From the IMG/VR virus record IMGVR_UViG_3300023174_000421, positions 1 to 33,483 of that record: a stretch of DNA of 33,483 nucleotides. The stretch is one strand, 5' to 3'. This document shows positions 3,197-30,658 of the stretch, piece by piece. The position numbers and the translations under genes were made by a program. Positions within the stretch are counted from its first letter, which is position 1. Each line of letters starts with the position of its first letter. Source of the stretch: a virus. The notes under the pieces are model-generated. The model saw nothing but the letters and a program-made list of their open reading frames with translations, ran no database searches and was not told the DNA's origin.

Positions 3197-4852
3197 ATGT
3201 ACGATTTCATGGAATACCTCAAAGAGGAACTGCTATCAGAAGCGACCGGCGTTGACAAGGGTCGCATTTCGCAGGGACTCATCTCATTTCAAGATAGCAA
3301 GAGCAAGGTTTGGAATGTGTTGAGTCAAGGGGGCTGGCTGTTCTCTCCTCGCTATGCACCGAATGCCCCAAAGGTATCCACCACAAAGAAGGTTGGTGCA
3401 AAGCCAACCATGCAGATGATTGAACTTCCCGAATACACCAAGTTGGTGAAGAAGGTCAAGGTATGGGTAGGTGATGTCAGCGCAGACAAGGCAAAGGCAA
3501 TCGTTGTCATCACGGCAAAGTCGGGGAATGAGCAGATTGTGTTCGGGCGATACTTAAGCACCGATACAGAGCCAGGAGCATTGAACAACAAGGACTTTGC
3601 AAACGCAAAGTATCTTCGTGTTAGTGCGAAGGGCGGCAAGATGAGTCAGTTGACCGCTAGCGAATTCCTTGTAGGCTCTCCGACTACAACCATCATGGTT
3701 GAAAAAGAAGGAGAAGAAAAGCCAGTTGAACTTTTCGTGTTCAAAACCGCGAATGCCTTGAGAACAACAATCCTGAACAACATGAAAGCGAGTTCTTTGT
3801 CTATCCTGAAGGATCCAATCGTATTGGACGAGACCAAGAAGTTTCTTGATTCGTTGATGAAGTCAGGCACAGCAACATTCAACTGGGAACGAATCGGCAA
3901 GAAGATGAACGAGGAAGATAGAACCAAGTTGGGAATCTTCTTGGTCTCTGAAGTAGGTTGGCCTTTCATCGTCATGGGTGCAGGAAAGAGCATCGGTGCA
4001 GGGTTTCCAGGCTTGCGTGGCATTGACTTCTTTGGAGTTCCAACAAGTTCCACAAACGCTGCCTTTGACTCCTGCCTCAAGGGAACGCTCTCTACGGGAG
4101 GCAAAGGACAAATCTTGGTTTCTTCCAAGGCAAAGTTGAAGTCCTCAAAAGGAGCAGCAGCAAGTGCAATGCCCAAGTTGCAAGAGACTGCCGCTTCATT
4201 CCGAAAGAGTGGAGAAAAACCAAACAATCCATTTGTCGCTGCCATGCTTCCATACATCACGCCAACCAATGGACCAAGCGCAACGATAATGAACTTTGGC
4301 ATCTACGAGATTGCAAAAATCAATAAGTCCACAATCCCCGATGCGGTAGAGTTCTGGAATTTCTGCAAGGCTTATTCGGGATATCCAGGCGGTCAGTCGG
4401 GAGACTCCGAAGCCCAACTCCGAGCGAAGTCCAAGAAGTTGTTGGCAAAGTATTCAAAGGAAGAGATAGCGCAGGGGGAAAAGGCTCTACGCGCCGTACA
4501 GCAAAAATTTGCATCTGGAGTCACATTGCCAGGCATCAAGGTTGCTGGTGTGATTGACCAACTCATTGCAGGATATCTTCAACCAAAGCAAATGCTTATG
4601 TTTGCACGGTATTTGCCTCATGCAATCTGCAAATTGATAGCGCAAGGATTGAATCACGACTCATCGGATTTCGTTCCGCCAAAGATGTGGCAAGTAACTG
4701 CGGACAACAATGTGTTCGTTGCATCCGGAACTGCACAACTTACTGCGCGATACCTTGGAGGCGGCGATTTCAAATACATCTTTACGCCAGGCAAAAATCC
4801 TCCACACGATCCACGAAGAGAGACATCGTGGCTTGGCTATGACCCACTCTAA
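3197..4852 (+). CDS. Large late protein, possible internal head protein
   Basis: Protein of 551 residues with no recognised domain. The N-terminus (MYDFMEYLKEELLSEA) is a short amphipathic helix ending in L-S-E followed by Ala. That resembles the capsid-targeting sequences of T4 internal proteins, which the gp21 prohead protease removes after an L/I-x-E motif. Much of the rest is Lys- and Ser-rich with Gly/Pro-containing turns, and the C-terminus is WLGYDPL. The ATG is preceded by GGGAG within a leader from the late promoter at 3166. Its stop overlaps the start of the next gene (TAATG). A virion role is inferred from late expression and the N-terminus, not from homology. Confidence 0.7.
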   Translation: MYDFMEYLKEELLSEATGVDKGRISQGLISFQDSKSKVWNVLSQGGWLFSPRYAPNAPKVSTTKKVGAKPTMQMIELPEYTKLVKKVKVWVGDVSADKAKAIVVITAKSGNEQIVFGRYLSTDTEPGALNNKDFANAKYLRVSAKGGKMSQLTASEFLVGSPTTTIMVEKEGEEKPVELFVFKTANALRTTILNNMKASSLSILKDPIVLDETKKFLDSLMKSGTATFNWERIGKKMNEEDRTKLGIFLVSEVGWPFIVMGAGKSIGAGFPGLRGIDFFGVPTSSTNAAFDSCLKGTLSTGGKGQILVSSKAKLKSSKGAAASAMPKLQETAASFRKSGEKPNNPFVAAMLPYITPTNGPSATIMNFGIYEIAKINKSTIPDAVEFWNFCKAYSGYPGGQSGDSEAQLRAKSKKLLAKYSKEEIAQGEKALRAVQQKFASGVTLPGIKVAGVIDQLIAGYLQPKQMLMFARYLPHAICKLIAQGLNHDSSDFVPPKMWQVTADNNVFVASGTAQLTARYLGGGDFKYIFTPGKNPPHDPRRETSWLGYDPL

Positions 4853-6252
4853 TGAAAGCCTTTGGCGACTGGCTCCTGCTTGAACGAGAACTTGATCGCG
4901 GAATGCGCGAGGCAGGTGGTCAGACATTTGATCGTATGTACAAGACGATCATGCAGATCATCAACAAGGGAGTTGAGAACTATCTCTTCACGATAAAGGA
5001 TGAGCCGACTCCAAAATACGATCCCTCCGACAAGGGTCTTGTTCGTGCGGAGATCAATAGGTTGATTTCGCGTATTTCCATCATCGGTGCATTCCAAAGC
5101 GGTAGCAAAGTCAAATTGGATGCGACTTTGTTCAACAACACTTCATACTTTCGTTACTTGATGAAGGACAAGGGAGAGATGTTCTTCCCACCGAACATCA
5201 AGTTTGCCGACTTTCAGAAGTATCTGGCGAACTCCATCGGTCTGATGGCGGTGAACATTCGTTCTCCATATGGCGGCGAAAGTTGGGGCGGGACATACAA
5301 AACGGGAAGGAAGGATGCGAGTTTTGAGATCAACATGAACAACTTCGCAACCCTCTATGCCGATGAGAACTCCCTGCTGCATGAAACAATGGATGCGGTT
5401 CTCAAGTTGAGATCACAAGGTAAGTCTGCAAACGCAATCATTCGCCCAATCAACAAGTGGATAGCGACATTCCAAAACGAACTGGCGACAAAGCGCGACC
5501 TCTTCGTCCACGAATACATTCACTTCTTGGATGACATGAGATACAAGTCAACGAGCGACAGACCAGGCAACATTGCTGCTGGCATAGAGGCATCTACTGG
5601 TCGTGATGATCCATTCAAGCGCAAGTATTACATGAGCGATGCAGAGACCAACGCATACTTCCAAGGCGCAGCATCTGAAATTGAAGATGCCGTCAAGTCG
5701 TTCTTGATTGCTGCAACCACGAATCGGGCAGCGGCTTTGGCGATACAGCAATCCAACATGATGATTCCAAAGTTCAATGCAATGACTACTCAAGCAAGAT
5801 GCGCTGCCGTTGGAGATGCGGTCATTGGAGATCTCTACAGGAAGATGAACGATGAGTTGCGCGAACCGTGGGTAGCACAGCACATAATGAAGATGCTTGA
5901 CATTGAGCCATCCCAAACAGGTCTCAAGGGGCTGCATCTATTCTGTCTTGCAATCGTATCGTGGCACTCTTTTAGCACAAGCCTGTTCTCGTTTGAAGAT
6001 CCAAAGAACCGCAAGAAACTCCTATCTCGCATCACGACATTTGCCCAAGATATTGAAAAAGTGATTGCGGAATACCGAATTAACATGACTCAAGGCAAGG
6101 TTCCATCCTCGCAGGAGTTCAACAAGGCTATGGAGAAGTTCAAGCCAGGTCGTGACCCCACCAAATCCAAGGGAACTTACAACATACTCTATACTGGTCT
6201 GATGATGGACAAGAAGGTCTATGACCCCAAGAAGCCATTTACAGGCACCTAA
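4852..6252 (+). CDS. Predicted zinc metalloprotease, possibly head-packaged
   Basis: Protein of 466 residues. RDLFVHEYIHFLDDMRY contains HEYIH (H220, E221, H224) plus D227 three residues on, the HEXXHxxD form of zinc metallopeptidases. An acidic residue in SEIED further along could be the third ligand. The N-terminus (MKAFGDWLLLERE) resembles a T4 capsid-targeting peptide with an L-x-E site. Start and stop are tightly coupled to the preceding large gene (TAATG overlap), so both probably come from the same late promoter. A protease that is packaged and injected, or one that acts in head maturation, would fit. The classical gp21 serine protease has a different fold, so this is not gp21. Confidence 0.72.
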   Translation: MKAFGDWLLLERELDRGMREAGGQTFDRMYKTIMQIINKGVENYLFTIKDEPTPKYDPSDKGLVRAEINRLISRISIIGAFQSGSKVKLDATLFNNTSYFRYLMKDKGEMFFPPNIKFADFQKYLANSIGLMAVNIRSPYGGESWGGTYKTGRKDASFEINMNNFATLYADENSLLHETMDAVLKLRSQGKSANAIIRPINKWIATFQNELATKRDLFVHEYIHFLDDMRYKSTSDRPGNIAAGIEASTGRDDPFKRKYYMSDAETNAYFQGAASEIEDAVKSFLIAATTNRAAALAIQQSNMMIPKFNAMTTQARCAAVGDAVIGDLYRKMNDELREPWVAQHIMKMLDIEPSQTGLKGLHLFCLAIVSWHSFSTSLFSFEDPKNRKKLLSRITTFAQDIEKVIAEYRINMTQGKVPSSQEFNKAMEKFKPGRDPTKSKGTYNILYTGLMMDKKVYDPKKPFTGT

Positions 6253-9751: not shown

Positions 9752-10439
9752 TACGAAGTCCTGCCGTGGTTGCCAAGTGATCAATGACGGGTTGTGATAC
9801 CCCTTCAATCATCTTCAGGTATTGCACGGGAATCAGGAACTTGCATGGGAGCGAGTCATTACTCACTCTTACTATCTCCTGCTCATTGCTGAACTTTGCA
9901 GTTCGCTTGCTGCTCATCTTCAGATTCTTGACAAATGAGGTGTTGAACAGCATCTCGTTCTTTGACGGTACTGCAATCACAATAGCAGGAACAATCTTCT
10001 TCTTGCGCCACGATGGAAAATCAATGGCAAAGAATTCTGCACGAATCTTGCTAGCAGACCACGATTGAATTGGATACTTGGATTGATAGTTTCCCGTGCC
10101 GATGATCTCTTGACGAGTATCATCAACAAATTTCCAATCCTTTATCTTGAGAATGTCAGGCATCGTCATTCTCACCCCACGATAAACAAGGCTGACATTG
10201 GGCTGAAGTTCGTTGGGGAACTTGCCTTTGCATTTTAATAGTTCACGAAAAGCGTTGACCACAGTTTCGGGTTTGTCCCGATAAGTCAATTTGTCGCTGA
10301 AGAAACTTTGAACTGCTTTTCTAATTTCCTTTTCTTGGGTCAAGTCCCTTTCCCCACCGTTTAAATCTCCAAAAAGGGTATTTCCAAAAATACGGGCGCA
10401 GTCGTCTTCCTGCAAAAGATGTTCCAAAAGTCTCTTCAT
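9741..10439 (-). CDS. Alt-like mono-ADP-ribosyltransferase
   Basis: Protein of 232 residues with the R-S-E signature of arginine-type ADP-ribosyltransferases: YRG (R87), SWS (S126-S128), and EQE (E186, E188) in NEQEIV. These enzymes move ADP-ribose from NAD to protein arginines; T4 Alt and ModA modify host RNA polymerase. The N-terminus MKRLLEHLLQED resembles the short start of T4 Alt and has an L-Q-E site that a prohead protease could cut, so the protein may be packaged and injected. The start at 10439 is fixed by a late promoter box 5 bases upstream. A 52-codon upstream extension is rejected because it would run through that promoter and the divergent gene. It is much shorter than Alt, with a single catalytic domain. 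Confidence 0.78.
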   Translation of the reverse strand: MKRLLEHLLQEDDCARIFGNTLFGDLNGGERDLTQEKEIRKAVQSFFSDKLTYRDKPETVVNAFRELLKCKGKFPNELQPNVSLVYRGVRMTMPDILKIKDWKFVDDTRQEIIGTGNYQSKYPIQSWSASKIRAEFFAIDFPSWRKKKIVPAIVIAVPSKNEMLFNTSFVKNLKMSSKRTAKFSNEQEIVRVSNDSLPCKFLIPVQYLKMIEGVSQPVIDHLATTAGLRITA

Positions 10440-10444
10440 GTGGG

Positions 10445-10451
10445 TATTTAG
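10445..10451 (-). promoter_or_regulatory. Late promoter, leaderless configuration
   Basis: On the minus strand this reads CTAAATA, then CCCAC, then ATG. Transcription starting 6 bases after the box begins at the A of the ADP-ribosyltransferase start codon. It lies back to back with the early promoter at 10455-10483. Confidence 0.82.
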
Positions 10452-10454
10452 GGG

Positions 10455-10483
10455 TTGACAGAAGGCAGGGCTTGGTTTATACT
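10455..10483 (+). promoter_or_regulatory. Early promoter, near-leaderless configuration
   Basis: TTGACA (10455-10460), a 17-bp spacer and TATACT (10478-10483). The ATG at 10492 lies 8 bases after the box, so the leader would be 0-2 bases. It is divergent from the late promoter 3 bp away. Confidence 0.87.
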
Positions 10484-10491
10484 TCACCCTA

Positions 10492-10992
10492 ATGGAAAAC
10501 ACCAACGACAACATCTCCATCCTCCGTGCTACCGTAGACAAGCAGAAGAATACGATTGAGAGCATGGGCAACTCAAACAACCTTCTTCGCACCATCGTTG
10601 AGCGTCAGCGAGGAATCATGGATGAACAGAGTCGCCGCATGAGTGGCTACCTCTCTGTCATTGACTTCATCTCTACTCTTGCGCGATCCAAGAATGTTGT
10701 CATCCCTTTGGACAAGATCACGGATTTGCTTGACGCAAAGACCAATGATGACCGTGACCGTCTGCTCGTTCAGTTCAAGATGGAAATCGTGCAGGATGTG
10801 CTGAACGAATTTGAAAAGACTGTGGAAACTTTCAATGGGCATGATGAGCCGCCCGTGTTCAATGATGCAGATTCGTGGGCATCACCTGAATGGGACGATG
10901 GTGCCTACGCTCCACCGCCCGAAGAGGTTAACACGGATATCACCAAGTGGAAGGTCTTTGACCGAAAGTGGAGGATGTTTGGCAATGGCTAA
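10492..10992 (+). CDS. Coiled-coil early protein
   Basis: Protein of 166 residues. The first 55 residues look like a coiled coil (ISILRATVDKQKNTIESM, LLRTIVERQRGIMDEQSRRM). A second helical region (DRDRLLVQFKMEIVQDVLNEFEKTVETF) is followed by an acidic, Pro-rich tail with many aromatics (SWASPEWDDGAYAPPPEE). No family recognised. It is first in a three-gene operon driven by the early promoter at 10455-10483. No Shine-Dalgarno site is present, in line with a leaderless message. Its end contains the GGAGG used by the next gene. Confidence 0.75.
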   Translation: MENTNDNISILRATVDKQKNTIESMGNSNNLLRTIVERQRGIMDEQSRRMSGYLSVIDFISTLARSKNVVIPLDKITDLLDAKTNDDRDRLLVQFKMEIVQDVLNEFEKTVETFNGHDEPPVFNDADSWASPEWDDGAYAPPPEEVNTDITKWKVFDRKWRMFGNG

Positions 10993-11116
10993 GATTCGCA
11001 AAGCAAAGGTTTCCAAGCCAAAGAAGGCAAAGGGACCAAAGAAGGCAAATAGTTCTAAGAAGTCAAAGGGACCAAAGAAGGCACAAGGACCAAAGAAGGC
11101 ACAAGGACCACGATAA
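10985..11116 (+). CDS. Lys-rich repeat protein, histone H1-tail-like
   Basis: Protein of 43 residues that is nearly half Lys, with tandem KGPKKA / QGPKKA units after a short start (MAKIRKAKVSKPKKA). The composition resembles the C-terminal tails of histone H1 and of bacterial H1-like proteins, which bind DNA without sequence specificity. The DNA shows near-perfect 18-bp tandem repeats from about 11039 to 11113, so the copy number can expand or shrink. The ATG overlaps the previous stop region and is served by GGAGG within that gene. The stop overlaps the next ATG (TAATG). It might bind DNA or RNA polymerase, but this is inferred from composition alone. Confidence 0.7.
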   Translation: MAKIRKAKVSKPKKAKGPKKANSSKKSKGPKKAQGPKKAQGPR

Positions 11117-11403
11117 TGTTGAATAAAGAATCAATGACAAAGATGCTCCGCGAGAGCGAAACAGGTTGTGAAGTCAAGTTCCGCAAGGTTGATGGAACCG
11201 AGCGCACAATGTGGTGTACTCTCAATCCCGCGCTTATGCCGCAGATTGAGGAAAAGCCCAAGAGCGAAAAGCCCAAGAAGACAGGGCTTACAGAAAGCAA
11301 CGATCATGTTGTTGCTTGGGATTTGGAGAAGAGTGCTTGGCGTTCCTTCCGCTGCGATTCCATCCTGCTGTTTAGCAGGGAGCGGGTTGCCGTGCAGAAA
11401 TGA
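11116..11403 (+). CDS. SH3-fold DUF2693-like protein
   Basis: Protein of 95 residues. The pattern GCEVKFRKVDGTERTMWCTLNP near residues 17-38, a Lys/Pro-rich linker, and HVVAWDLEKSAWRSFRCDSI near the C-terminus match a small SH3-barrel family found in T4-like phages (DUF2693 type: F-x-K-x-DGT-x-R-x-M-x-C-T-L-N, then VWDLE-x-x-x-WR-x-FR). Its role is unknown. The ATG overlaps the previous stop and AAGGA lies 8 bases upstream. It ends a three-gene early operon, and tRNA genes follow 23 bases later. Confidence 0.78.
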   Translation: MLNKESMTKMLRESETGCEVKFRKVDGTERTMWCTLNPALMPQIEEKPKSEKPKKTGLTESNDHVVAWDLEKSAWRSFRCDSILLFSRERVAVQK

Positions 11404-11426
11404 CGAGAGCAAATTACGCTTAATTC

Positions 11427-11500
11427 GTCCTCGTAGCGCAGTTGGATAGAGCAGTTGCCTTCTAAGCAACAGGTCACAGGTTCAAGTCCTGTCGGGGACG
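11427..11500 (+). tRNA. tRNA-Arg (UCU)
   Basis: Complete cloverleaf of 74 nt. GTCCTCG/CGGGGAC acceptor, GTTGC/GCAAC anticodon stem with loop CTTCTAA (anticodon TCT at 11461-11463), CACAG/CTGTC T-arm region with TTCAAGT loop, discriminator G. It is separated by 5 bases from the intron-containing tRNA-Lys. Confidence 0.93.
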
Positions 11501-11505
11501 CTTAC

Positions 11506-11762
11506 GCTCTCGTAACTCAACTGGTAGAGTAGCGGACTTCATAGGAGCATTACATTAGGAATGGTGTAATGAATCCCGTCAAATTCGGTGAACGGCTAAA
11601 TGCCCAACGCCGAGCCAAGCGCAGAAATGCGAAGGTGTAGAGACTTGACGGCGGGCATCCAGAACGGATGAAGGCAAAGTCCAGACCACGAACCGCAAGG
11701 GCGGCGCAAGCCGAAGTGGTAAGTTAATCCGCAAGTTATGGGTTCAAGTCCCATCGGGAGCA
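11506..11762 (+). tRNA. tRNA-Lys (UUU) interrupted by a group I intron
   Basis: Exons 11506-11539 and 11724-11762 join into a perfect 73-nt tRNA. Acceptor GCTCTCG/CGGGAGC, D-stem ACTC/GAGT, anticodon stem GCGGA/TCCGC, loop CTTTTAA, variable AAGTT, T-stem ATGGG/CCCAT, discriminator A. The joined anticodon is TTT, with the break between positions 34 and 35, the same site used by the classic cyanobacterial tRNA-Leu intron. Read without splicing, the anticodon loop would be grossly misfolded, so splicing is needed for a functional tRNA. CCA is not encoded. Confidence 0.92.
11540..11723 (+). ncRNA. Compact group I intron (184 nt) in tRNA-Lys
   Basis: All core helices can be drawn. P2 is CATTACA (11548-11554) with TGTAATG (11565-11571). 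P3 is CCGTCAA (11576-11582) with TTGACGG (11645-11651). P4-P6 lie between them: TTCGG/CCGAG, GGC/GCC, and CGC/GCG. P7 is GACTT (11642-11646) with AAGTC (11677-11681), P8 is CATCC/GGATG, and P9 is CCAC/GTGG with two small inner hairpins. The R segment GTAGAGACTTGACGG and S segment AAAGTCCAG are the conserved core. The 5' exon ends in U, which can pair with G in P1, and the intron ends in G. It has no ORF. The architecture resembles the tRNA-intron subgroup IC3; splicing itself is inferred. Confidence 0.92.
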
Positions 11763-11770
11763 TTGTTTTA

Positions 11771-11777
11771 CTAAATA
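11771..11777 (+). promoter_or_regulatory. Late promoter of the HNH gene
   Basis: CTAAATA. Transcription should begin at G 11783, inside the 5' arm of the hairpin that holds the HNH ribosome-binding site. Confidence 0.82.
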
Positions 11778-11798
11778 GATTAGCAGGAGGTGCTAATC
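11778..11798 (+). promoter_or_regulatory. Hairpin presenting or sequestering the HNH Shine-Dalgarno site
   Basis: GATTAGCA (11778-11785) and TGCTAATC (11791-11798) form a perfect 8-bp stem whose 5-base loop is GGAGG, one base before the ATG at 11800. Transcripts read through from upstream can form it. Those from the late promoter start at 11783 and lose five bases of the 5' arm. This is the layout known for T4 homing endonuclease I-TevI, where early messages are translationally silenced and late ones are active. Confidence 0.8.
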
Positions 11799-11799
11799 T

Positions 11800-12165
11800 A
11801 TGCACAAACCGATATGCAAATACTGTGGTAAGGAATGCAAACTCGCGCCTTCCCAACGAAAAAGAAAATCAAATGGTAGATCACAATGTAATTCATGCGG
11901 AGTCACAAAACGCCGATGGAAAACCAAAATGCAACTGATTGAAGTCAAAGGTGGAAAGTGCGAACGATGTGGTTGGAGCGGACATCCTGGTGCATTTCAG
12001 TTTCATCATAAAGATCCATCCAAAAAAGAATTTGGCATAAGTGGAAATGGATTACTATTGAAAGAGCGTTGGGCTGAATTGGATAAATGTGAACTTTTGT
12101 GTGCGTGTTGCCACAGCATAGAGCATTCTAATACCGATTTGATGAAACGCATGGGTTTGGTCTAA
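11800..12165 (+). CDS. Free-standing HNH homing endonuclease
   Basis: Protein of 121 residues. An N-terminal zinc ribbon (C6, C9, C30, C33) is followed by a Cys-flanked HNH domain: CERC (C54, C57), FHHKDP (H69, H70), and CELLCACCHSIEH at about 97-109. Such enzymes nick or cut DNA and spread their own gene by recombination. It begins 37 bp after a tRNA gene that holds a small ORF-less group I intron, so it may have helped spread that intron by cutting intron-free tRNA-Lys genes. Expression looks tightly timed by the late promoter and hairpin upstream. It could also simply be an unrelated intergenic homing gene. Confidence 0.9.
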   Translation: MHKPICKYCGKECKLAPSQRKRKSNGRSQCNSCGVTKRRWKTKMQLIEVKGGKCERCGWSGHPGAFQFHHKDPSKKEFGISGNGLLLKERWAELDKCELLCACCHSIEHSNTDLMKRMGLV

Positions 12166-12168
12166 ATA
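12162..12168 (+). promoter_or_regulatory. Late promoter
   Basis: CTAAATA overlapping the stop codon of the HNH gene. The predicted start at 12174 gives a 13-base leader beginning with AAGGA, so the Shine-Dalgarno site is at the extreme 5' end of the message to the ATG at 12187. Confidence 0.78.
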
Positions 12169-12186
12169 CCTCAAAGGAACTTTACT

Positions 12187-12468
12187 ATGGACACACTCAC
12201 AATCATCTTGATCGCAGTCGCCGCCTTTGGTTGGATCGCCAACTTCCTCATCTTTTCCGAGAATCAAGAACTTGCACGGAAGTACAAGGCGGAAACGGAA
12301 GAACTTATTCTCAATAATAGGCTAAAAGAAATGGATCATTCCATCAGCCATCGTATTGAAGAATTGGAACGAGAACTGAACTATTGGCGCGAAGACATTG
12401 ATACTCGCGTTATGAAGGTAGAGATTGATTTGGCAAAGCACCAACGGGCTACAGGAAAGCAGAAGTAA
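12187..12468 (+). CDS. Membrane-anchored coiled-coil protein
   Basis: Protein of 93 residues. An N-terminal transmembrane helix (residues 3-24, LTIILIAVAAFGWIANFLIF) is followed by a long charged helix likely to form a coiled coil (ENQELARKYKAETEEL ... ISHRIEELERELNYW). No family recognised. Late expression and this layout would fit a spanin-like or membrane-remodelling role, but no lipobox or partner is seen. tRNA-Gln begins 9 bases after the stop. Confidence 0.72.
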   Translation: MDTLTIILIAVAAFGWIANFLIFSENQELARKYKAETEELILNNRLKEMDHSISHRIEELERELNYWREDIDTRVMKVEIDLAKHQRATGKQK

Positions 12469-12477
12469 TACTCTTTC

Positions 12478-12548
12478 TCTCCTGTGGTGTAATGGTAGCA
12501 CGGAACCCTTTGAAGGTTCTTGTTTAGGTTCAAATCCTAATGGGAGAA
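12478..12548 (+). tRNA. tRNA-Gln (UUG)
   Basis: Cloverleaf of 71 nt. Acceptor TCTCCTG/TGGGAGA with two terminal wobble pairs, D-stem GTGT/GCAC, anticodon stem GAACC/GGTTC with loop CTTTGAA (anticodon TTG at 12510-12512), T-stem TTAGG/CCTAA with loop TTCAAAT, discriminator A. Its 3' acceptor strand doubles as the ribosome-binding site of the next gene. Confidence 0.92.
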
Positions 12549-12553
12549 TTCCT

Positions 12554-12886
12554 ATGGAAAACTACGATAGCGAATGGCATCCTGAAGACGAAAACGAAGA
12601 AGAGGATGATAATTATCCTGTTGAAGATGAAGACGAAACAGTAGAAGAGGCTCTTGCTGCTGAGGAAGAGTTGTTGGAGATGGAAGAAGAACTCCTTGTC
12701 AGAGAAGCACTACTTGAATTCTCTTTCAAATTCAGCGAATATATTCGTGAGATGGATCCTGAACTTTGGAAACGGGGAATTGATTACGCCGTGACCTTTA
12801 CAGAAGTTGAAGGAGTTGAATTCTTCACAGAAGTAAATGGCAATACAGGAAACAGCGAAGAGCCGCCTGAGCCGCCCACTACATAA
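12554..12886 (+). CDS. Highly acidic protein
   Basis: Protein of 110 residues. The first 55 are dominated by Glu and Asp (PEDENEEEDDNYPVEDEDE) and run into a helical stretch (LLEMEEELLVREALLEF). A folded aromatic middle and a Pro/Glu-rich tail (NSEEPPEPPTT) follow. No family recognised. Strong acidity is seen in DNA-mimic inhibitors, and also in many unrelated proteins, so no function is assigned. The ATG at 12554 is served by GGGAG that lies within the 3' end of tRNA-Gln, so cutting out the tRNA would remove the ribosome-binding site. Confidence 0.72.
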   Translation: MENYDSEWHPEDENEEEDDNYPVEDEDETVEEALAAEEELLEMEEELLVREALLEFSFKFSEYIREMDPELWKRGIDYAVTFTEVEGVEFFTEVNGNTGNSEEPPEPPTT

Positions 12887-12890
12887 AGAC

Positions 12891-13418
12891 ATGAGAGACT
12901 TTCAAACACATATTGACGAAGCCCCACAAGGAACCATCTATTGCGATATGGATGGTGTTCTTGTTGATATCATCGGCGGAATGACTTCTTTGGCGGGTAT
13001 TCATCGCCTTGCACCAGATCAGTTTGAGACTTGGTTAGAAAAGAACAAGAAGAAGTTTGATGCAGAGCATCCAAACCTTTTTGCCCATTTGCCTTGGATG
13101 ACAGACGGCAAGAGGCTTTGGGCATATATTACTCGTTATGGCGCACACATTCTTTCTGCCCATACCAAGTCTTGGCAACCTACCTCCAAGCCGGATAAGA
13201 TGGCTTGGATCAAGGCAAACATGAGTCCTATTCCACAAAACATTCACTTGGTGCTGCGTAAGGACAAGCAGAAGTATGCCAAGTTGAATGGCATTCCAAA
13301 TATTCTGATTGACGATTACCCACCCAACATCAAGGAATGGAATGCTGCGGGTGGAATCGGCATCCTACATACAAGCGCAGAAGATACGATTCAGCGACTG
13401 AAGAAACTTGGTTATTGA
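12891..13418 (+). CDS. HAD-family 5'(3')-deoxyribonucleotidase-like phosphatase
   Basis: Protein of 175 residues. YCDMDGVLVD (D19, D21) is the nucleophile and acid/base motif of HAD phosphatases. ILSAHTKS supplies motif II, the lysine in VLRKDKQKYA fits motif III, and NILIDDYPPNIKEWNAAGG gives the acidic motif IV. The arrangement and size match the NT5C-type deoxyribonucleotidases found in many T4-like phages, which remove phosphate from nucleoside monophosphates. The ATG at 12891 lies four bases after the acidic gene's stop. Substrate is inferred from the family only. Confidence 0.82.
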   Translation: MRDFQTHIDEAPQGTIYCDMDGVLVDIIGGMTSLAGIHRLAPDQFETWLEKNKKKFDAEHPNLFAHLPWMTDGKRLWAYITRYGAHILSAHTKSWQPTSKPDKMAWIKANMSPIPQNIHLVLRKDKQKYAKLNGIPNILIDDYPPNIKEWNAAGGIGILHTSAEDTIQRLKKLGY

Positions 13419-13432
13419 AAGGCGATTTCGTT

Positions 13433-14425
13433 ATGAAGACAGCAATGATTACGGGGGTCAACGGACAAGACGGCTCTTACTTGGCAGAACTTCTTCTTGA
13501 GAAGGGCTACCGAGTCATCGGTCTCAAGCGCAGAACATCAACAATCAATACGGGGCGAATTGATCACCTGATGGGAAATCAAAATTTCTCCATCAAGTAT
13601 TATGATCTCCATGATGCTTACTTCATCAATCACATAATGAAGGAAGAGAAGATTGATGAGGTCTACAATCTAGCCGCACAGAGCCATGTCGCGGTTTCAT
13701 TTGAAATCCCCGATTACACTTCAGACGGTATCTGCCGTGGCACTCTCAATATTCTGAATGCCATTCGCAACATCTCACCGACTACGAGAATGTATCAGGC
13801 TTCGTCATCAGAAATGTATGGAGATAGTTCTGACTATACCGAAAAGGGCTTCAATGAGAACAGCCGCATGATGCCTGTCTCTCCCTATGCCGTAGCCAAG
13901 TTGTATGCTCATCAAATGGTGAATGTCTATCGCAAAGCGTATGGACTGCATCTATCTTCAGGTATCTTGTTCAACCACGAAAGCCCACGCCGTGGCGAAA
14001 CATTCGTCACACGCAAGATTACGATGGCAGCAGCCAAGATCAAGAAGGGATTGCAGAAGGATCTGTATCTTGGAAACCTTGATGCCAAGCGCGATTGGGG
14101 TCATGCCAAGGATTATGTCAACGCCATGTGGTTGATGTTGCAGCAGGAAAAGCCTGACGATTATGTCATTGCTACAGGTGAAACTTATAGTGTTGAGGAT
14201 TTCCTCACCGAGATCTTCACCTATTCGGGTCTAGGAAATTGGCGTAACTATGTCAAGATTGATCCTCGCCTGAAGCGTCCAAACGAAGTGCCATACCTAC
14301 TAGGAGACTCCACCAAGGCACGAACTGTTCTTGGTTGGAAGCCTGAATACAATATGCAGACACTTGCAAGACGAATGTTTGATTCTGATTGTGCCATGCT
14401 TGATTGCGGTGCGATCATCTACTAA
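13433..14425 (+). CDS. gmd: GDP-mannose 4,6-dehydratase
   Basis: Protein of 330 residues in the extended short-chain dehydrogenase family. It carries the NADP-binding start ITGVNGQDGSYLAELLLEKGY, the catalytic SSSEMYG and YAVAK (Tyr and Lys), and the family hallmark NHESPRRGETFVTRKI. Gmd turns GDP-mannose into GDP-4-keto-6-deoxymannose, the precursor of GDP-fucose, rhamnose and perosamine sugars. A phage copy may alter the host surface polysaccharide or feed glycosylation of phage components. No partner synthase is seen in the window. The ATG at 13433 is used because the upstream extension overlaps the nucleotidase gene; the length is only slightly below that of bacterial Gmd. Confidence 0.92.
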   Translation: MKTAMITGVNGQDGSYLAELLLEKGYRVIGLKRRTSTINTGRIDHLMGNQNFSIKYYDLHDAYFINHIMKEEKIDEVYNLAAQSHVAVSFEIPDYTSDGICRGTLNILNAIRNISPTTRMYQASSSEMYGDSSDYTEKGFNENSRMMPVSPYAVAKLYAHQMVNVYRKAYGLHLSSGILFNHESPRRGETFVTRKITMAAAKIKKGLQKDLYLGNLDAKRDWGHAKDYVNAMWLMLQQEKPDDYVIATGETYSVEDFLTEIFTYSGLGNWRNYVKIDPRLKRPNEVPYLLGDSTKARTVLGWKPEYNMQTLARRMFDSDCAMLDCGAIIY

Positions 14426-14435
14426 AGGAGCAGCC

Positions 14436-14657
14436 ATGTATACACCAGGTCAAGGTTACAAAGATGGATTCAATGATCGTATGAACGGTCTTCCCAACAA
14501 GGCAGAATCAAAGTTTGGATTCTCCAAGAACGCATACGATCAGGAATATCTCACCGGTTATTCCGATGCAGAGCGCAGAGTTCTTGAAAATGCCCGTAAG
14601 GAAGTCAATGAGGATCGCCGCTACCTAGCGGAATCCCATAAGCACGGGGCTGACTAA
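14436..14657 (+). CDS. Hypothetical small protein
   Basis: Protein of 73 residues, hydrophilic and rich in Tyr, Gly, Asp and Asn in the first half (GYKDGFNDRMNGLPNK, DQEYLTGYSDAERR) with a charged helix at the end. Short proteins with repeated G-Y/F-x-D-G patterns are common in phages but have no known function. AAAGGAG lies 5 bases before the ATG and 1 base after the gmd stop, so the two genes are one operon. Confidence 0.72.
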   Translation: MYTPGQGYKDGFNDRMNGLPNKAESKFGFSKNAYDQEYLTGYSDAERRVLENARKEVNEDRRYLAESHKHGAD

Positions 14658-14692
14658 TTTCTAAAATTCATCGTGTGGGCGCATAATCAATC

Positions 14693-14699
14693 CTAAATA
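14693..14699 (+). promoter_or_regulatory. Late promoter
   Basis: CTAAATA, predicted start 14705, with AGGAG in the 15-base leader before the ATG at 14720. Confidence 0.8.
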
Positions 14700-14719
14700 A
14701 AAGTCTAGGAGATTCAGAT

Positions 14720-15079
14720 ATGCACATCAGCACATTTCTCACCATTCAGGCTCAACTTCGTATTCTGCATTGGCAAACCAAGTCGTATGCAGAACATAAG
14801 GCTCTAGGCAAGGCGTATGATGCGCTAGATGATCTCGTTGATCAGTTCGTTGAAGTTCACTCCGGTAAGTATGGCAACACCCTTGCCAAGAACAATTTTC
14901 AATTCTCTGCCGTGAACTACAAGGATGCAAATGTTATGGCACTCATTGATTCTTACATTTCGTATCTTACAAATGAGTTGCCCCAAGTTTGCAAAGAGGG
15001 CGATACTGATCTTTTAAACATTCGGGATGAAATGCTTTCTGTCCTGAATCGGACCAAGTATTTGCTCCGTCTGACTTGA
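14720..15079 (+). CDS. Ferritin-like (DUF5856-type) protein
   Basis: Protein of 119 residues. The stretch QLRILHWQTKSYAEHKALGKAYDALDDL, continuing to DQFVE, resembles the first helices of Dps/ferritin-like proteins: H-W-Q-T, Y-A-E-H-K and a later acidic pair are spaced like metal ligands. A family of this kind (DUF5856) is frequent in T4-like phages. Whether it binds iron or protects DNA is untested. It has its own late promoter and Shine-Dalgarno site. The next early promoter overlaps its stop. Confidence 0.75.
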   Translation: MHISTFLTIQAQLRILHWQTKSYAEHKALGKAYDALDDLVDQFVEVHSGKYGNTLAKNNFQFSAVNYKDANVMALIDSYISYLTNELPQVCKEGDTDLLNIRDEMLSVLNRTKYLLRLT

Positions 15080-15104
15080 CACGAACAGCATTGCCTCGTA
15101 TACT
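15076..15104 (+). promoter_or_regulatory. Early promoter, near-leaderless configuration
   Basis: TTGACA (15076-15081), a 17-bp spacer and TATACT (15099-15104). The ATG at 15113 follows the box by 8 bases, so the leader would be 0-2 bases. The -35 box overlaps the stop codon of the upstream late gene. Confidence 0.87.
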
Positions 15105-15112
15105 CATACCAA

Positions 15113-15460
15113 ATGAGCGAAGATATCACATCATCATATTTCCCGATCTCCCGTTTCGCTTCTCGTTACGGTGATGATCGCAAGGTCTTCAAGGTCTCCG
15201 AGAACGAATACAAGTTGGTCGGATCAATGCGCTACTGTCGTACAGGTGGGGATGCAGATCGCGTCCTCTACATGGATCCTGAAGGTGGACCATTCATCTG
15301 TGTGGGTGACTCCATCGCAGAAAGCCTTGGCGTAGTATCAGACAATCGCTATATCTGTGAAGTCAAGGGACTTGGCACAGAGAAGGATCCAATGACAGGC
15401 GAAGAACTTTCCGTCATCGGCATCAAGGTTTCCCCTATCAAGGAAAAGGTGGAACTCTGA
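15113..15460 (+). CDS. Hypothetical early protein
   Basis: Protein of 115 residues with no recognised family. Alternating strands and turns (YKLVGSMRYCRTGGDADRVLYMDPEGGPFICVGDS, YICEVKGLG, LSVIGIKVSPI) suggest a small beta-rich fold. No Shine-Dalgarno site precedes the ATG, matching a leaderless transcript from the promoter just upstream. The stop overlaps the ATG of the next gene (TGATG). Confidence 0.75.
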   Translation: MSEDITSSYFPISRFASRYGDDRKVFKVSENEYKLVGSMRYCRTGGDADRVLYMDPEGGPFICVGDSIAESLGVVSDNRYICEVKGLGTEKDPMTGEELSVIGIKVSPIKEKVEL

Positions 15461-15621
15461 TGCTTGGTGGCGAAGCAGGAAAAGGCGATTCGTATCGCCC
15501 CGTTGACCGCAGGATGTGGTCAAAGAATTGGGATGCTATCTTTAGTAAGAAGAAGCCTTCCAAGAAGAAAGTCAGGAAGACTAATGTTAACCATTCCAGA
15601 AAGGAGAATACAAATGGATAA
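15460..15621 (+). CDS. Small basic protein of the GGKGD-type phage family
   Basis: Open frame of 53 residues: start GGEAGKGDSYRPVD, middle RRMWSKNWDAIFSKKK, and a Lys/Arg-rich tail. The pattern G-G-x-x-G-K-G-D-x-x-R-P then W-D-x-I-F-x-K-K is one I have seen in small proteins of many phages; its function is unknown. The ATG overlaps the previous stop and the 3' end overlaps the start of the next gene by 8 bases. A longer reading frame in another phase across this stretch is rejected because this fit is tighter. Confidence 0.72.
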   Translation: MLGGEAGKGDSYRPVDRRMWSKNWDAIFSKKKPSKKKVRKTNVNHSRKENTNG

Positions 15622-15808
15622 GGTTAAGACAAGTGTTTGCCCAGTTACTGGTGGTTGTGATAAGATTTCGTGCCTTCTATCAAAGGTCGGAATTACTCGT
15701 AGCCTCCTAATTACTCTCGCAATCCTTCCATATGCTTGGAAGGGTACTGTCCTCTGCGCCGAAGGAATTACGGCACTATGGGGCATCGTCACTAACGCCG
15801 TTAAGTGA
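15614..15808 (+). CDS. Small membrane protein with Cys cluster
   Basis: Protein of 64 residues. A Cys-containing start (CPVTGGCDKISC) precedes two hydrophobic stretches (about residues 27-43 and 46-62, SLLITLAILPYAWKG and LCAEGITALWGIVTNAV). No family recognised. The Cys residues could bind metal or form disulphides. The ATG at 15614 follows AAAGGAG by 7 bases, and the gene ends the early operon that begins at 15113. Confidence 0.7.
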   Translation: MDKVKTSVCPVTGGCDKISCLLSKVGITRSLLITLAILPYAWKGTVLCAEGITALWGIVTNAVK

Positions 15809-15845
15809 TTTCAATTGGTTGGCGGCGTGGTAGGAACACGCGGAC

Positions 15846-15874
15846 TTGACAAGAGTTGCAGTTGGTAATAAAAG
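15846..15874 (+). promoter_or_regulatory. Possible promoter for the tmRNA
   Basis: TTGACA (15846-15851), a 17-bp spacer and TAAAAG. The -35 box is perfect and the -10 box weak (4 of 6). It lies about 100 bases before the mature tmRNA 5' end. The stretch from 15809 to 15971 otherwise holds only a small hairpin (GCGTG/CACGC) and no convincing gene. Confidence 0.5.
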
Positions 15875-15971
15875 GTTTAGTAGGGTGTCACATCCTTACA
15901 ATGAAATCAACCCATAAAGCCAACAAAGAGGGTGACCTGGGTCATACACAAATCCCTCCCAACCCCACTAC

Positions 15972-16310
15972 GGGGATGAACAGGTTTAGACTGGATGGAC
16001 AAGAGAACGGAGCATGACGAAGAAGGATGCTAGGCTTCGTAAAAATGCATTCAAAATAAGACTGCCAATCGCAGACTTGCCCTCGCTGCTTAATCAGCGA
16101 ACGAATCTTGCCTAACCCCGATGGGGTAAGATTCGCAATCATCGGGACTTGACTTCAAGCCTCCACCGTGCTTGGAGATCATAAGATGAACGGTGGAAAA
16201 CTTGTCAAGGGTGTCCATGCCCAAGACATTTTAAAATGACATGGAATAATCATGTAGTAGCCGTTCTGGCGTTTCATACCAACACAGGGGTTCGACTCCC
16301 CTCATCTCCA
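15972..16310 (+). ncRNA. ssrA: tmRNA (one-piece), tag ANRRLALAA
   Basis: The ends form a tRNA-Ala-like acceptor: GGGGATG (15972-15978) with CATCTCC (16303-16309) and discriminator A. It includes a G-U pair at position 3-70, the alanyl-tRNA synthetase identity element. The T-arm is AGGGG, loop TTCGACT, CCCCT. In the middle a resume codon GCC at 16064 follows AAAATAAGACT and opens the tag ANRRLALAA, stopping at TAA 16091-16093 inside a hairpin (CGCTG/CAGCG). Several stems and probable pseudoknots follow. Length 339 nt, close to the bacterial size. tmRNA frees stalled ribosomes and marks the unfinished protein for proteolysis; the LALAA end fits ClpXP-type tags. Confidence 0.93.
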
Positions 16311-16327
16311 TTAACCAAAGGACTTTT

Positions 16328-16534
16328 ATGCAAATAGAAGATTTCATAATTCATACCAACATAGGCGAGTTTGCTCGTAAGGTTTCATGGATTTTGCAAT
16401 TGGAACACGAAGGAAAGTTCACTTCGTCAAAGGCATTTGAAGAGATCAAGAAACTCTACATAGAGTTAGAGAAGTCACAAGATACAGTTCGTGGAAATAC
16501 AGGAGCAGACAATGCAACAGGAAGATCGGTTTGA
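16328..16534 (+). CDS. Hypothetical small protein
   Basis: Protein of 68 residues, mostly helical (GEFARKVSWILQLEHEGK, SSKAFEEIKKLYIELEK) with a polar tail. No family recognised. AAAGGA lies 5 bases before the ATG, directly after the tmRNA 3' end, so it may be read from the same transcript. The 3' end overlaps the next gene by 23 bases. Confidence 0.7.
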   Translation: MQIEDFIIHTNIGEFARKVSWILQLEHEGKFTSSKAFEEIKKLYIELEKSQDTVRGNTGADNATGRSV

Positions 16535-18527: not shown

Positions 18528-18650
18528 TCAAAGATGCGGCAAAGAGGATTCGCTCCCTGCCAAGGTTCGCCAAGGCTAGCCGCCCTCGTCTGTGCGAGGT
18601 TAAACAGGATTTAGGCACAGAGCGGCGGGGGAGAGTTTCCCCCGCGTATA
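18528..18650 (+). ncRNA. Predicted structured small RNA
   Basis: About 120 nt between an early promoter and a GC-rich hairpin, with no convincing ORF. One two-part hairpin pairs CCGCC (18580-18584) with GGCGG (18624-18628) and TCTGTGC (18589-18595) with GCACAGA (18615-18621). A second, CGGGGGA (18626-18632) with TTCCCCCG (18637-18644), overlaps the first by three bases, so the two may compete. The second is followed by GTATATTTG and could end transcription. The stretch 18651-18712 that follows contains only a weak TTGACG box. Homology to a known RNA family was not recognised. Confidence 0.55.
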
Positions 18651-18712
18651 TTTGCTTGACGGTAACTGCCTCGTCATGCCATTAAATCTCGCAGAGAGCA
18701 GAGAGATAACTT

Positions 18713-28906: not shown

Positions 28907-29954
28907 TTAAGCGTAAAGTGATTCCAAATACAGTTCTTTAAGAATGGTCTTGAGTTTGTTTGGATTGCCGACTTTCAGTTGGTCAATCTCATTATTGATG
29001 ATGGACAGAGTGTCTTGAGCAACATCAACTTGTTCTGTGAGAGTGATGCCCATCTCCTTGTCCTCAATTACCGTTGCTCCATAGACTCCGATGTTCGTGA
29101 GTCTATCAATCAGCGTATCAAACATCACGGGATTGGTCTTCTTACGAACTACCACACGAACGAATGTGTGCTTGTATCTATCCAAGTCACAAGAGGTATA
29201 ATCCTCCTGCTCATCGTCATAGATGAGTTGTGTAAAAATAGTGAGTGGATTGCGAATGTATTCAAGCGTCCGATTATCGGTGTCAAATACATGGAACCCC
29301 TTTGGCTCATTGAGATCAGCAAATGTAATCTGATATGGAGTGCCAAGATAGTTCACATTCCCACGGCTGTGCTTTTGGTGGAAGTGACCGCTGAAGACCG
29401 CTTCAAAATCCTTGAAAATCGCAGGATCCATTCCGTCTTCATGCTTCACTCCACGCATGACTTCATAGCCTGTGAGTTCCAAGTGACCCATGAGAAAAGG
29501 AACCTTGTTCTTCACAGCCTTCTCAATGAATGCCATGCACTCATCGTTGTTGTCCTTCGTGATCCAAGGAACAAAAGCAATCTTCACTCCATCAAACTCA
29601 AGAACCGTTGGCTGCTCCAAGAGACCGTCACCAAAGTCATTGTGAAACAACTCGCGCATGGAGTTGACTTGGTTTGTGTTCTTGAAGTAGACATCGTGAT
29701 TACCAAGGATCGCATACACCTTATGATTGGAAACAAGAGGTTGTATGAAACGCTTGCGAACCTCGTTCAGCGTGGCGAAGTTGATGAACTTGCGCCGATC
29801 AAGCAGATCGCCCAAATGAAACACGGTATCAATCTTATTCTTCTTCAAGTACGGCAAGAACACCTCGTCCGTAAACTTGAAGAAATGGTGCAGGAAGATC
29901 GGTGAATCACTACGCGCACCGAAAGTGGGTATCACAGATGATAGCGATTTTCAT
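28907..29954 (-). CDS. 47: gp47 recombination nuclease subunit (SbcD/Mre11-like), apparent +1 frameshift
   Basis: Mre11-type phosphoesterase of about 348 residues when read through a frameshift (T4 gp47: 339). The ATG at 29954 opens MKIAIICDTHF, with metal motif I (D-x-H). An extra C at 29921 then shifts the frame, and the rest follows as GARSDSP, GDLLDRR, GNHD, GHLELTG and SGHFHQKHS. Without the shift, frame 0 hits TAG at 29910-29912. A GTG at 29935 would start the second frame but loses the D-x-H. The slip site TTT-C lets tRNA-Phe move +1 onto TTC before a CGG codon. Programmed shifting, a real mutation or a sequence error are all open. The ATG overlaps the stop of the GIY-YIG gene (ATGA). 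Confidence 0.88.
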
Positions 29955-30658
29955 GGGTGATTCTCCAATCTGGCAAATCTGAATCCCTTGTGATGTGCTT
30001 GTTTACCTTCAAGCACACCGCAAGCATTGCGGTAAGTAAGACCATTGTTTTTACAAAACTCCGTCAGACAGTTTGTTATTGTTTCTTTACCATCTGGAAA
30101 CCAAACCCTGTATCGTTTTGCCGCAGGATTGGCAGCACCAGATTTTCCTTTTCCAGGAAATTTTAGACCTTTATTCCAAGCAGTTTTGCTTTTTCTTCCA
30201 TTTTCTCTTGCTAGTTCCTGCCGTTTTTGTTTTTCCGATGTGGGCAAGTTTTTCCAGTAGTTCCGTATACCCTCTATGTGGTTTTTCTTTTTTATCGGAT
30301 CGGAGTGTTGCTCCAAAGCGTTCTTTCTGATTTTGTTGGAAAACTCCGATGTCTTATATGGATCTATATTTCGCACCACAGGACTGCAATCTCCACCTTT
30401 TGTGCAGTTGTAGCCACTACCAAATGATTGGTAATGCGCCACCCACTTCTGTTCAAGTTGCAACACTTCTGTCAAATCATCGCATTCTTCAATCATTCTG
30501 ATAGTAAAACACTCTTTTCCATGCAAGCGTATTGCCTTACCTATTGGCTTGTCTGATCTTGTGTGTTGGTAGAAGCGATGTTTCAAAGTGGTTGAAGTAT
30601 ATCCGACATACTTCTTGCTATTTACGGAGTTTTCTATTAGGTAGACTTTGTATCTCAT
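29951..30658 (-). CDS. Free-standing GIY-YIG homing endonuclease
   Basis: Protein of 235 residues. The GIY-YIG core opens with KVYLIENSVNSKKYVGYT (residues 4-21) and continues with R28 and the family's later NCTKGGD. The C-terminal half carries NUMOD-like DNA-binding segments (NKIRKNALEQ, KSKTAWNKGLKF) and a basic FRFARL end. Such enzymes cut a target near their own insertion point and spread by homing. It sits between gp55 and gp47, overlapping the gp47 start codon by four bases, so translation of gp47 may be coupled to it. A CATACATA box 5 bases before its ATG predicts late leaderless expression. Confidence 0.9.
   Translation of the reverse strand: MRYKVYLIENSVNSKKYVGYTSTTLKHRFYQHTRSDKPIGKAIRLHGKECFTIRMIEECDDLTEVLQLEQKWVAHYQSFGSGYNCTKGGDCSPVVRNIDPYKTSEFSNKIRKNALEQHSDPIKKKNHIEGIRNYWKNLPTSEKQKRQELARENGRKSKTAWNKGLKFPGKGKSGAANPAAKRYRVWFPDGKETITNCLTEFCKNNGLTYRNACGVLEGKQAHHKGFRFARLENHP

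Follow-up and report, generated by a model that had tools for sequence, protein, structure and literature searches.

A small group I intron in a phage tRNA-Lys gene and its probable spread with a neighboring HNH endonuclease gene

How does a ribozyme come to sit inside the anticodon of a phage tRNA, does it leave the transcript again, and what carries it from one genome to the next? The locus that raises these questions is a tRNA-Lys(UUU) gene at positions 11506-11762 of a viral DNA stretch of 33,483 nt, the whole of which we call the window, and this gene is interrupted by a group I intron. We put at roughly 80% the probability that the intron is a functional ribozyme that splices and that, lacking an endonuclease of its own, it spreads together with the HNH endonuclease gene downstream, a reading built on comparison of sequences from phages and bacteria.

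The window carries UvsW, gp46/gp47-like and late sigma factor genes, which identify the phage as T4-like; by UvsW, its nearest named relatives are the Methylophilales phages Melnitz, at 53% identity. Elsewhere in the window lie a tmRNA gene (15972-16313; Rfam, 116 bits), a Pistol self-cleaving ribozyme (18584-18651; 58.7 bits, above gathering) and a GIY-YIG endonuclease gene (29951-30658, minus strand) with an I-HmuI-like NUMOD match, which is flanked by the gp47-like gene (28907-29935) and the late sigma factor gene and is probably a further free-standing homing gene.

A tRNA-Lys gene split by a group I intron

The tRNA-Lys gene lies between a tRNA-Arg(UCU) gene and the HNH endonuclease gene (Table 1). 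ARAGORN in intron mode reports tRNA-Lys(UUU) with positions 34 and 35 separated by an intron of 184 nt, and the joined exons give a 73-nt tRNA with each stem paired, in agreement with the first-pass annotation, which had proposed a perfect 73-nt tRNA-Lys(UUU) split at this very point; run without the intron option, ARAGORN did not call the gene. The border nucleotides named in that annotation are both present: U11539 precedes the 5' splice site and pairs with G11545 (the U.G of P1), and G11723 ends the intron. Searched at its gathering thresholds, Rfam made no group I call in the window. A covariance search had been suggested as a check, and a relaxed search of a short stretch (461 bases) matched RF00028 at 11529-11705 with the model aligned end to end (1-253), at E = 3.6e-8 and 37.7 bits, below the curated gathering score of 50. 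The pre-tRNA has a minimum free energy of -89.9 kcal/mol (z = -3.75), a value that none of 200 shuffles reached. No endonuclease reading frame occurs within the 184 nt. The intron is indeed small, as first remarked, but it is not exceptional within its family, where lengths of 176, 181 and 183 nt also occur. Codon usage in the phage is a separate matter: AAG outnumbers AAA by 397 to 91 in 14 larger window genes, so that tRNA-Lys(UUU) would be used mostly in wobble reading or for a minor codon.

Table 1. Positions of the tRNA genes, the intron and its elements, and the HNH gene in the window
Feature	Positions	Strand	Remarks
tRNA-Arg(UCU), intronless	11427..11501	+	neighboring gene
5' exon of tRNA-Lys(UUU)	11506..11539	+	ends at U33-U34; ARAGORN intron mode
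Group I intron, 184 nt, site 34|35	11540..11723	+	ARAGORN, Rfam, covariation of 23 homologues, L191 empty site
P10 guide UAG	11542..11544	+	pairs with UUA 11724-11726, the first three bases of the 3' exon
Internal guide sequence GAG	11545..11547	+	pairs with exon CUU 11537-11539 (P1); invariant in 23/23 introns
P2, 10 bp, GGAA (GNRA) loop	11548..11571	+	two-sided changes in 9/10 pairs
P3	11575-11580 with 11650-11655	+	encloses P4-P6a; two-sided changes in 5/6 pairs
P4	11585-11590/11608-11613	+	
P5	11594-11596/11602-11604	+	two-sided changes; third pair forms in only 6/23 rows
P6 and P6a	11614-11636	+	two-sided changes in P6a
P7, pseudoknotted guanosine-site helix	11642-11646 with 11677-11681	+	encloses P8
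P8	11656-11660/11666-11670	+	
P9 with P9b	11685..11720	+	terminal G 11723 lies beyond
P9b, GCAA loop	11702-11705/11710-11713	+	two-sided changes in 4/4 pairs
3' exon of tRNA-Lys(UUU)	11724..11762	+	ARAGORN intron mode
Insertion patch, ~394 nt, holding the HNH gene	11763..12157	+	absent from L191, which matches 11733-11764 and 12157-16500
HNH endonuclease gene, 121 aa	11800..12165	+	probable homing enzyme of the cassette; starts 38 nt past the tRNA

The fold was examined in an alignment of 23 tRNA-Lys introns from phages and Actinobacteria, scored against a structure comprising P1-P9, P6a, P9b and P10 with the P3/P7 pseudoknot. Paired cells amount to 95.0%, against 30-43% in controls whose partners were slid 1-3 columns out of register. 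Because the window served as the template for the structure, this percentage is biased in its favor, but the two-sided changes are independent of that choice. Such changes occur in 29 of the 56 pairs, and double-changed cells number 196 as against 64 in shuffles. P3 and P7 are paired in 100% of cells and carry two-sided changes; P7 reads GACUU/AAGUC in the window and GACUA/UAGUC or GACUG/CAGUC in relatives, its closing pair varying among U-A, A-U and G-C. Three positions are unpaired in many of the 23 rows, namely the third of P5, the last of P8 and the outermost of P9. The helices proposed at first reading (P2, P3, P4-P6, P7, P8 and P9) can all be paired in the window and are kept across the homologues, and comparison thus shows a predicted fold of P1-P9 with the P3/P7 pseudoknot. 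The covariation and the RF00028 match together bear out the earlier assignment to group I. The subgroup is tentatively IC3, to which the P3-P4-J6/7 sequence bears a presumed resemblance.

The window is one metagenomic viral contig, and one might therefore suspect an assembly chimera, or a resemblance due to chance. The probability of either is close to negligible: the cassette or the intron recurs in independent contigs and in isolate genomes, the insertion is base-exact at a known group I site, and the covariation lies well above both the shuffled and the slid controls.

Guide pairings and splicing

Does the intron splice? We compared the three bases before GAG with the start of the 3' exon in 66 introns inserted after U34 in tRNAs of several isotypes. 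P10 forms in 177 of 198 pairs, against a mean of 116 and a maximum of 144 in 10,000 sets of shuffled exons, and the pairing partners change with the tRNA: UUU faces AAA in Leu, UAG faces UUA in Lys, UAC faces GUA in Thr, and UAG faces CUA in Arg. Because the guide tracks the isotype, the introns appear to select their own splice sites, which argues comparatively that they splice. The anticodon loop of tRNA-Arg(UCU), CUU|CUA, would suit the guide of the window intron as well. The actinobacterial carriers point the same way as the guides: in eight of ten intron-bearing genomes, a pattern search allowing two mismatches found no intronless tRNA-Lys copy, so the interrupted gene probably supplies the tRNA and must be spliced.

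In the reaction that we propose, the ribozyme would bind guanosine in P7, GAG would pair with CUU of the 5' exon to form P1 and UAG with UUA of the 3' exon to form P10, and two transesterifications would then yield tRNA-Lys(UUU). We infer that this would take place in infected cells with no obligatory help from protein. Could the insert instead be a decayed relic that no longer splices and has left a tRNA pseudogene behind? The Rfam score below the gathering cut-off would suit such a relic, but every core base and pair is intact, the nearest kin (L003) is 98% identical within the intron, the guide pairings are kept on both sides and the joined tRNA is perfect, and we regard decay as very improbable.

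Two relatives (L004, at ~4857-5110, and L011) carry a tRNA-Lys intron that apparently lies one base over, at 35|36, with guide GAA for exon UUU, possibly a site shift with a matching change of guide.

Exchanged flanks and the HNH gene

How did a splicing intron reach this gene? The most telling relative is L191, whose identity to the window is 97.7% at 9966-11531 and 98.2% at 12157-16500. Its tRNA genes follow the window order (tRNA-Arg, tRNA-Lys, tRNA-Gln), but its tRNA-Lys is intronless and the HNH gene is missing. Nor is the HNH gene present in six more intronless relatives (L193-L196, L199 and L201); both elements occur in L200 and the intron alone in L198. The first-pass annotation had proposed looking at related phages without the intron; such phages were found, and in them an ordinary tRNA-Lys is continuous across precisely the 34|35 point. 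Around the insertion, 8 of 17 exon bases (positions -8 to +9) differ between the window and L191, with no difference in the 26 bases before this stretch or the 32 after it. The flanks of the window, GCGGACTT/TTAATCCG, are those of the intron-bearing contigs L003 and L008, and with the exchanged bases the anticodon stem is still paired. The comparison with L191 thus yields both a precise intron-minus allele and co-conversion of the exons, as expected of mobile group I introns with a homing endonuclease.

Flanks exchanged in this manner are the mark left by double-strand-break homing. They are not explained by reverse splicing into tRNA-Lys with subsequent reverse transcription and recombination, a route that would leave the exons unchanged, whereas here both flanks are exchanged within DNA that is otherwise 98% identical. 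The 5' exon sequence CUU, common to Leu, Lys, Arg and Thr tRNAs, does make ectopic entry possible; for the insertion in the window we consider reverse splicing unlikely, and older moves between isotypes could have followed this route.

The neighboring gene, which was passed over at first reading together with the exchanged flanks and the occurrence of the intron in other phages and in Actinobacteria, encodes a 121-aa protein that matches PHROG 2255, an HNH endonuclease, at E = 8.4e-23, with no Pfam match. Among the searches made, L003 shares only positions 11512-12159 with the window (86%), i.e. the tRNA-intron-HNH cassette, and on this comparison the cassette has been transferred between otherwise dissimilar contigs. 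Relatives of the HNH gene lie directly downstream of tRNA-Lys introns in L003, in L157 (the same contig as L200) and at six Microbacterium loci, and in Gordonia phage Daredevil a relative lies 489 nt downstream, on the other strand. Of 24 tRNA-Lys introns, 9 have a member of the family in the 600 nt downstream, as do 2 of 54 other tRNA introns (Fisher p = 2.5e-4, in a test that ignores kinship and is partly carried by Microbacterium). Full-length introns are present in 11 of 149 Microbacterium genomes, and nine of these 11 have an HNH homologue within ~125 nt, one of the nine being broken.

Ten HNH homologues without an intron of the window type beside them were examined; six of these adjoin a tRNA gene that carries another intron, and the remaining four adjoin a tRNA-Lys-like gene that has none. 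It is thus with the tRNA-Lys gene, more than with the intron as such, that the enzyme seems to be associated, as would fit collaborative or trans homing, in which a free-standing endonuclease acts with an endonuclease-free intron, as in T4 mobE with the nrdB intron (PMC2988022). Adjacency of the HNH gene to the intron and its co-absence from intronless relatives are both observed here. We infer that the HNH protein is probably the homing enzyme of the intron: in a co-infection it would cleave or nick the intronless tRNA-Lys gene of the other phage, whose recombination-dependent repair would then bring in a copy of both the intron and the HNH gene. The 32 bases that separate the intron from the HNH patch match the recipient, as in L191, and the two insertions may reflect one event with patchy conversion or two separate events.

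The six neighbors with a different intron (L278, L281, L282, L284, L285 and L286, all Microbacterium) hold a longer group I-like element of 247-262 nt with the core CAGAGACT; ARAGORN labels these genes Asn(GUU), and their boundaries permit Lys(UUU) too. The four intronless neighbors (L277, L279, L280 and L283) have an odd T arm and are possibly decoys or relics.

The 32 recipient bases between the two insertions also suit another account, in which the intron is functional but the HNH gene beside it stands free and homes on its own, with no more than a preference for tRNA clusters, and the intron, without a dedicated endonuclease, has moved between co-infecting phages by ordinary homologous recombination. 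L198 keeps the intron without the HNH gene, relatives of the HNH gene in Microbacterium adjoin intronless or otherwise interrupted tRNA genes, HNH genes are frequent in phages, and many tRNA-Lys introns have no HNH neighbor; T4 SegB is a known free-standing endonuclease in a tRNA cluster (PMC2988022). The enrichment downstream of tRNA-Lys introns over other tRNA introns, and the absence of the HNH gene from every intronless relative examined, argue against such independence, which we hold to be possible but doubtful. Joint spread of the intron and the HNH gene is the reading that we favor.

A family of phage tRNA introns and its known counterparts

The first-pass annotation named no parallel to the window gene among tRNA-Lys genes, yet it belongs to a large family. 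The core pattern occurs in at least 120 viral contigs, and most introns that could be placed lie in tRNA genes, chiefly Leu(UAA), at the 34|35 site. Dozens of phage tRNA genes carry group I introns, Leu(UAA) most commonly, and a two-part gapped pattern located tRNA-Lys introns at 34|35 in some 15 viral contigs and, among bacteria, in Microbacterium, Nesterenkonia and Phytoactinopolyspora genomes. The relatives are largely metagenomic contigs, and we rederived their sites by combining the U/G splice rule with the guide and the pairing of the anticodon stem, some remaining uncertain; the window sites are those of ARAGORN. We set aside a first 3'-junction pattern, whose matches fell mostly by chance in protein genes, and the ARAGORN isotypes Tyr, SeC, Stop, Asn and Pyl given for many relatives, which are probably artefacts of ambiguous boundaries.

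Named phages are among the carriers. In Agrobacterium phage Atu_ph07, a jumbo phage, a group I intron of 278 nt splits a tRNA-Leu(UAA) gene that is not annotated (L018, 1871-2232), and the word "intron" is absent from the paper on this phage. Gordonia phage Daredevil has an unannotated tRNA-Lys intron of 238 nt adjoining an integrase gene. An integrase or recombinase lies beside the split tRNA-Lys both in Daredevil (L014, 1-1272 and 1839-2150) and in Nesterenkonia (L181, 4922-6727), and integration at tRNA-Lys could be a route by which the intron enters bacterial chromosomes. In L172, upstream of a match on the minus strand (4851-4866), what seems to be a reading frame within the intron precedes a tRNA-Lys-type 3' end and exon, possibly a version with an intron-encoded homing endonuclease. 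A related core also lies between two ORFs both annotated as capsid protein, in Pelagibacter phage HTVC120P (L013, 1973-2165) and in L015, probably a capsid gene split by a group I intron.

Where did the tRNA-Lys introns come from? A tree of 66 introns places the window with L003 and L008. Its well-supported branches require several Lys/Leu switches, and at least six label changes in all, in a short alignment whose bootstrap is unsettled. These changes leave a single origin of all phage tRNA-Lys introns unsupported, and the tree gives no support to a derivation of the Lys intron from tRNA-Arg(UCU), which the common guide UAG had suggested. The clearest pair is a Lys intron (L176) and a Leu(UAA) intron (L096), which differ only within their initial 36-40 nt, where the guide and P2 lie, and are identical from the P2-P3 junction onward. 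We therefore speculate, tentatively, that the core serves as a portable chassis that shifts among Lys, Leu, Arg and Thr by replacing just its 5' guide/P1-P2 module, and that a stand-alone HNH enzyme specific for the tRNA-Lys gene mobilizes the Lys version in two parts, with bacterial chromosomes among the destinations. More broadly, these introns seem to form a mobile class that passes from one tRNA gene to another and has so far escaped notice.

A 2014 review described phage introns as known only in protein genes, despite the many phage tRNA genes (PMC3984707). In the open literature, with few preprints and subscription journals covered, our searches brought up no subsequent description of a group I intron in a phage tRNA gene, nor of a genuine tRNA-Lys intron. 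Group I introns in the anticodon loops of many phage tRNA genes run against that protein-gene-only view, and phage tRNA counts made without an intron-aware search are underestimates. The window and L191 form a natural intron-plus/intron-minus pair, 98% identical, with a candidate homing enzyme. How group I introns change host gene, how introns without their own endonuclease move, and whether phages carry tRNA introns into bacteria can now be tested.

The nearest counterparts by position are the group I introns of cyanobacterial and plastid tRNA-Leu(UAA), small ribozymes inserted between U34 and position 35, for which PMC3984707 and PMC5733544 cite the original work. The window intron shares their fold, insertion point and small size, as the phage Leu(UAA) introns share the site, and it differs in its Lys isotype, its phage genome, its length of 184 nt and its adjoining endonuclease gene. 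The IC3 intron of Azoarcus pre-tRNA-Ile(CAU) is likewise small, lies in the anticodon loop, and has a three-base guide and GNRA loops on P2 and P9; the short guide and the GNRA loops recur in the window, whereas the Azoarcus intron is about 20 nt longer and occupies another tRNA at another position. A 49-nt "group I intron" of cyanobacterial tRNA-Lys (PMC5733544) is much too short to be one. Group I introns in the T-psi-C loops of tmRNA in many bacterial phyla (PMC11915505) resemble the window intron in entering a tRNA-like RNA and differ in gene and site.

Among phage introns, those of T4 td, nrdB and nrdD, of SPO1 and of Twort are self-splicing, as predicted for the window intron, phage-borne and spread by DNA homing; they lie in protein genes, often with an endonuclease inside, whereas the window intron lies in a tRNA gene with its candidate enzyme outside. 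T4 SegB offers a homing endonuclease gene among phage tRNA genes, but it is a GIY-YIG enzyme without an intron, in contrast to the HNH gene with an intron here. Closest in arrangement is T4 mobE/nrdB, which likewise combines an intron without an endonuclease frame, an adjacent endonuclease gene and exchanged flanks (PMC2988022); the target in the window is a tRNA gene, and the activity of its HNH protein is putative. The mechanism is that of known group I introns together with the proposed collaborative or trans homing (PMC2988022).
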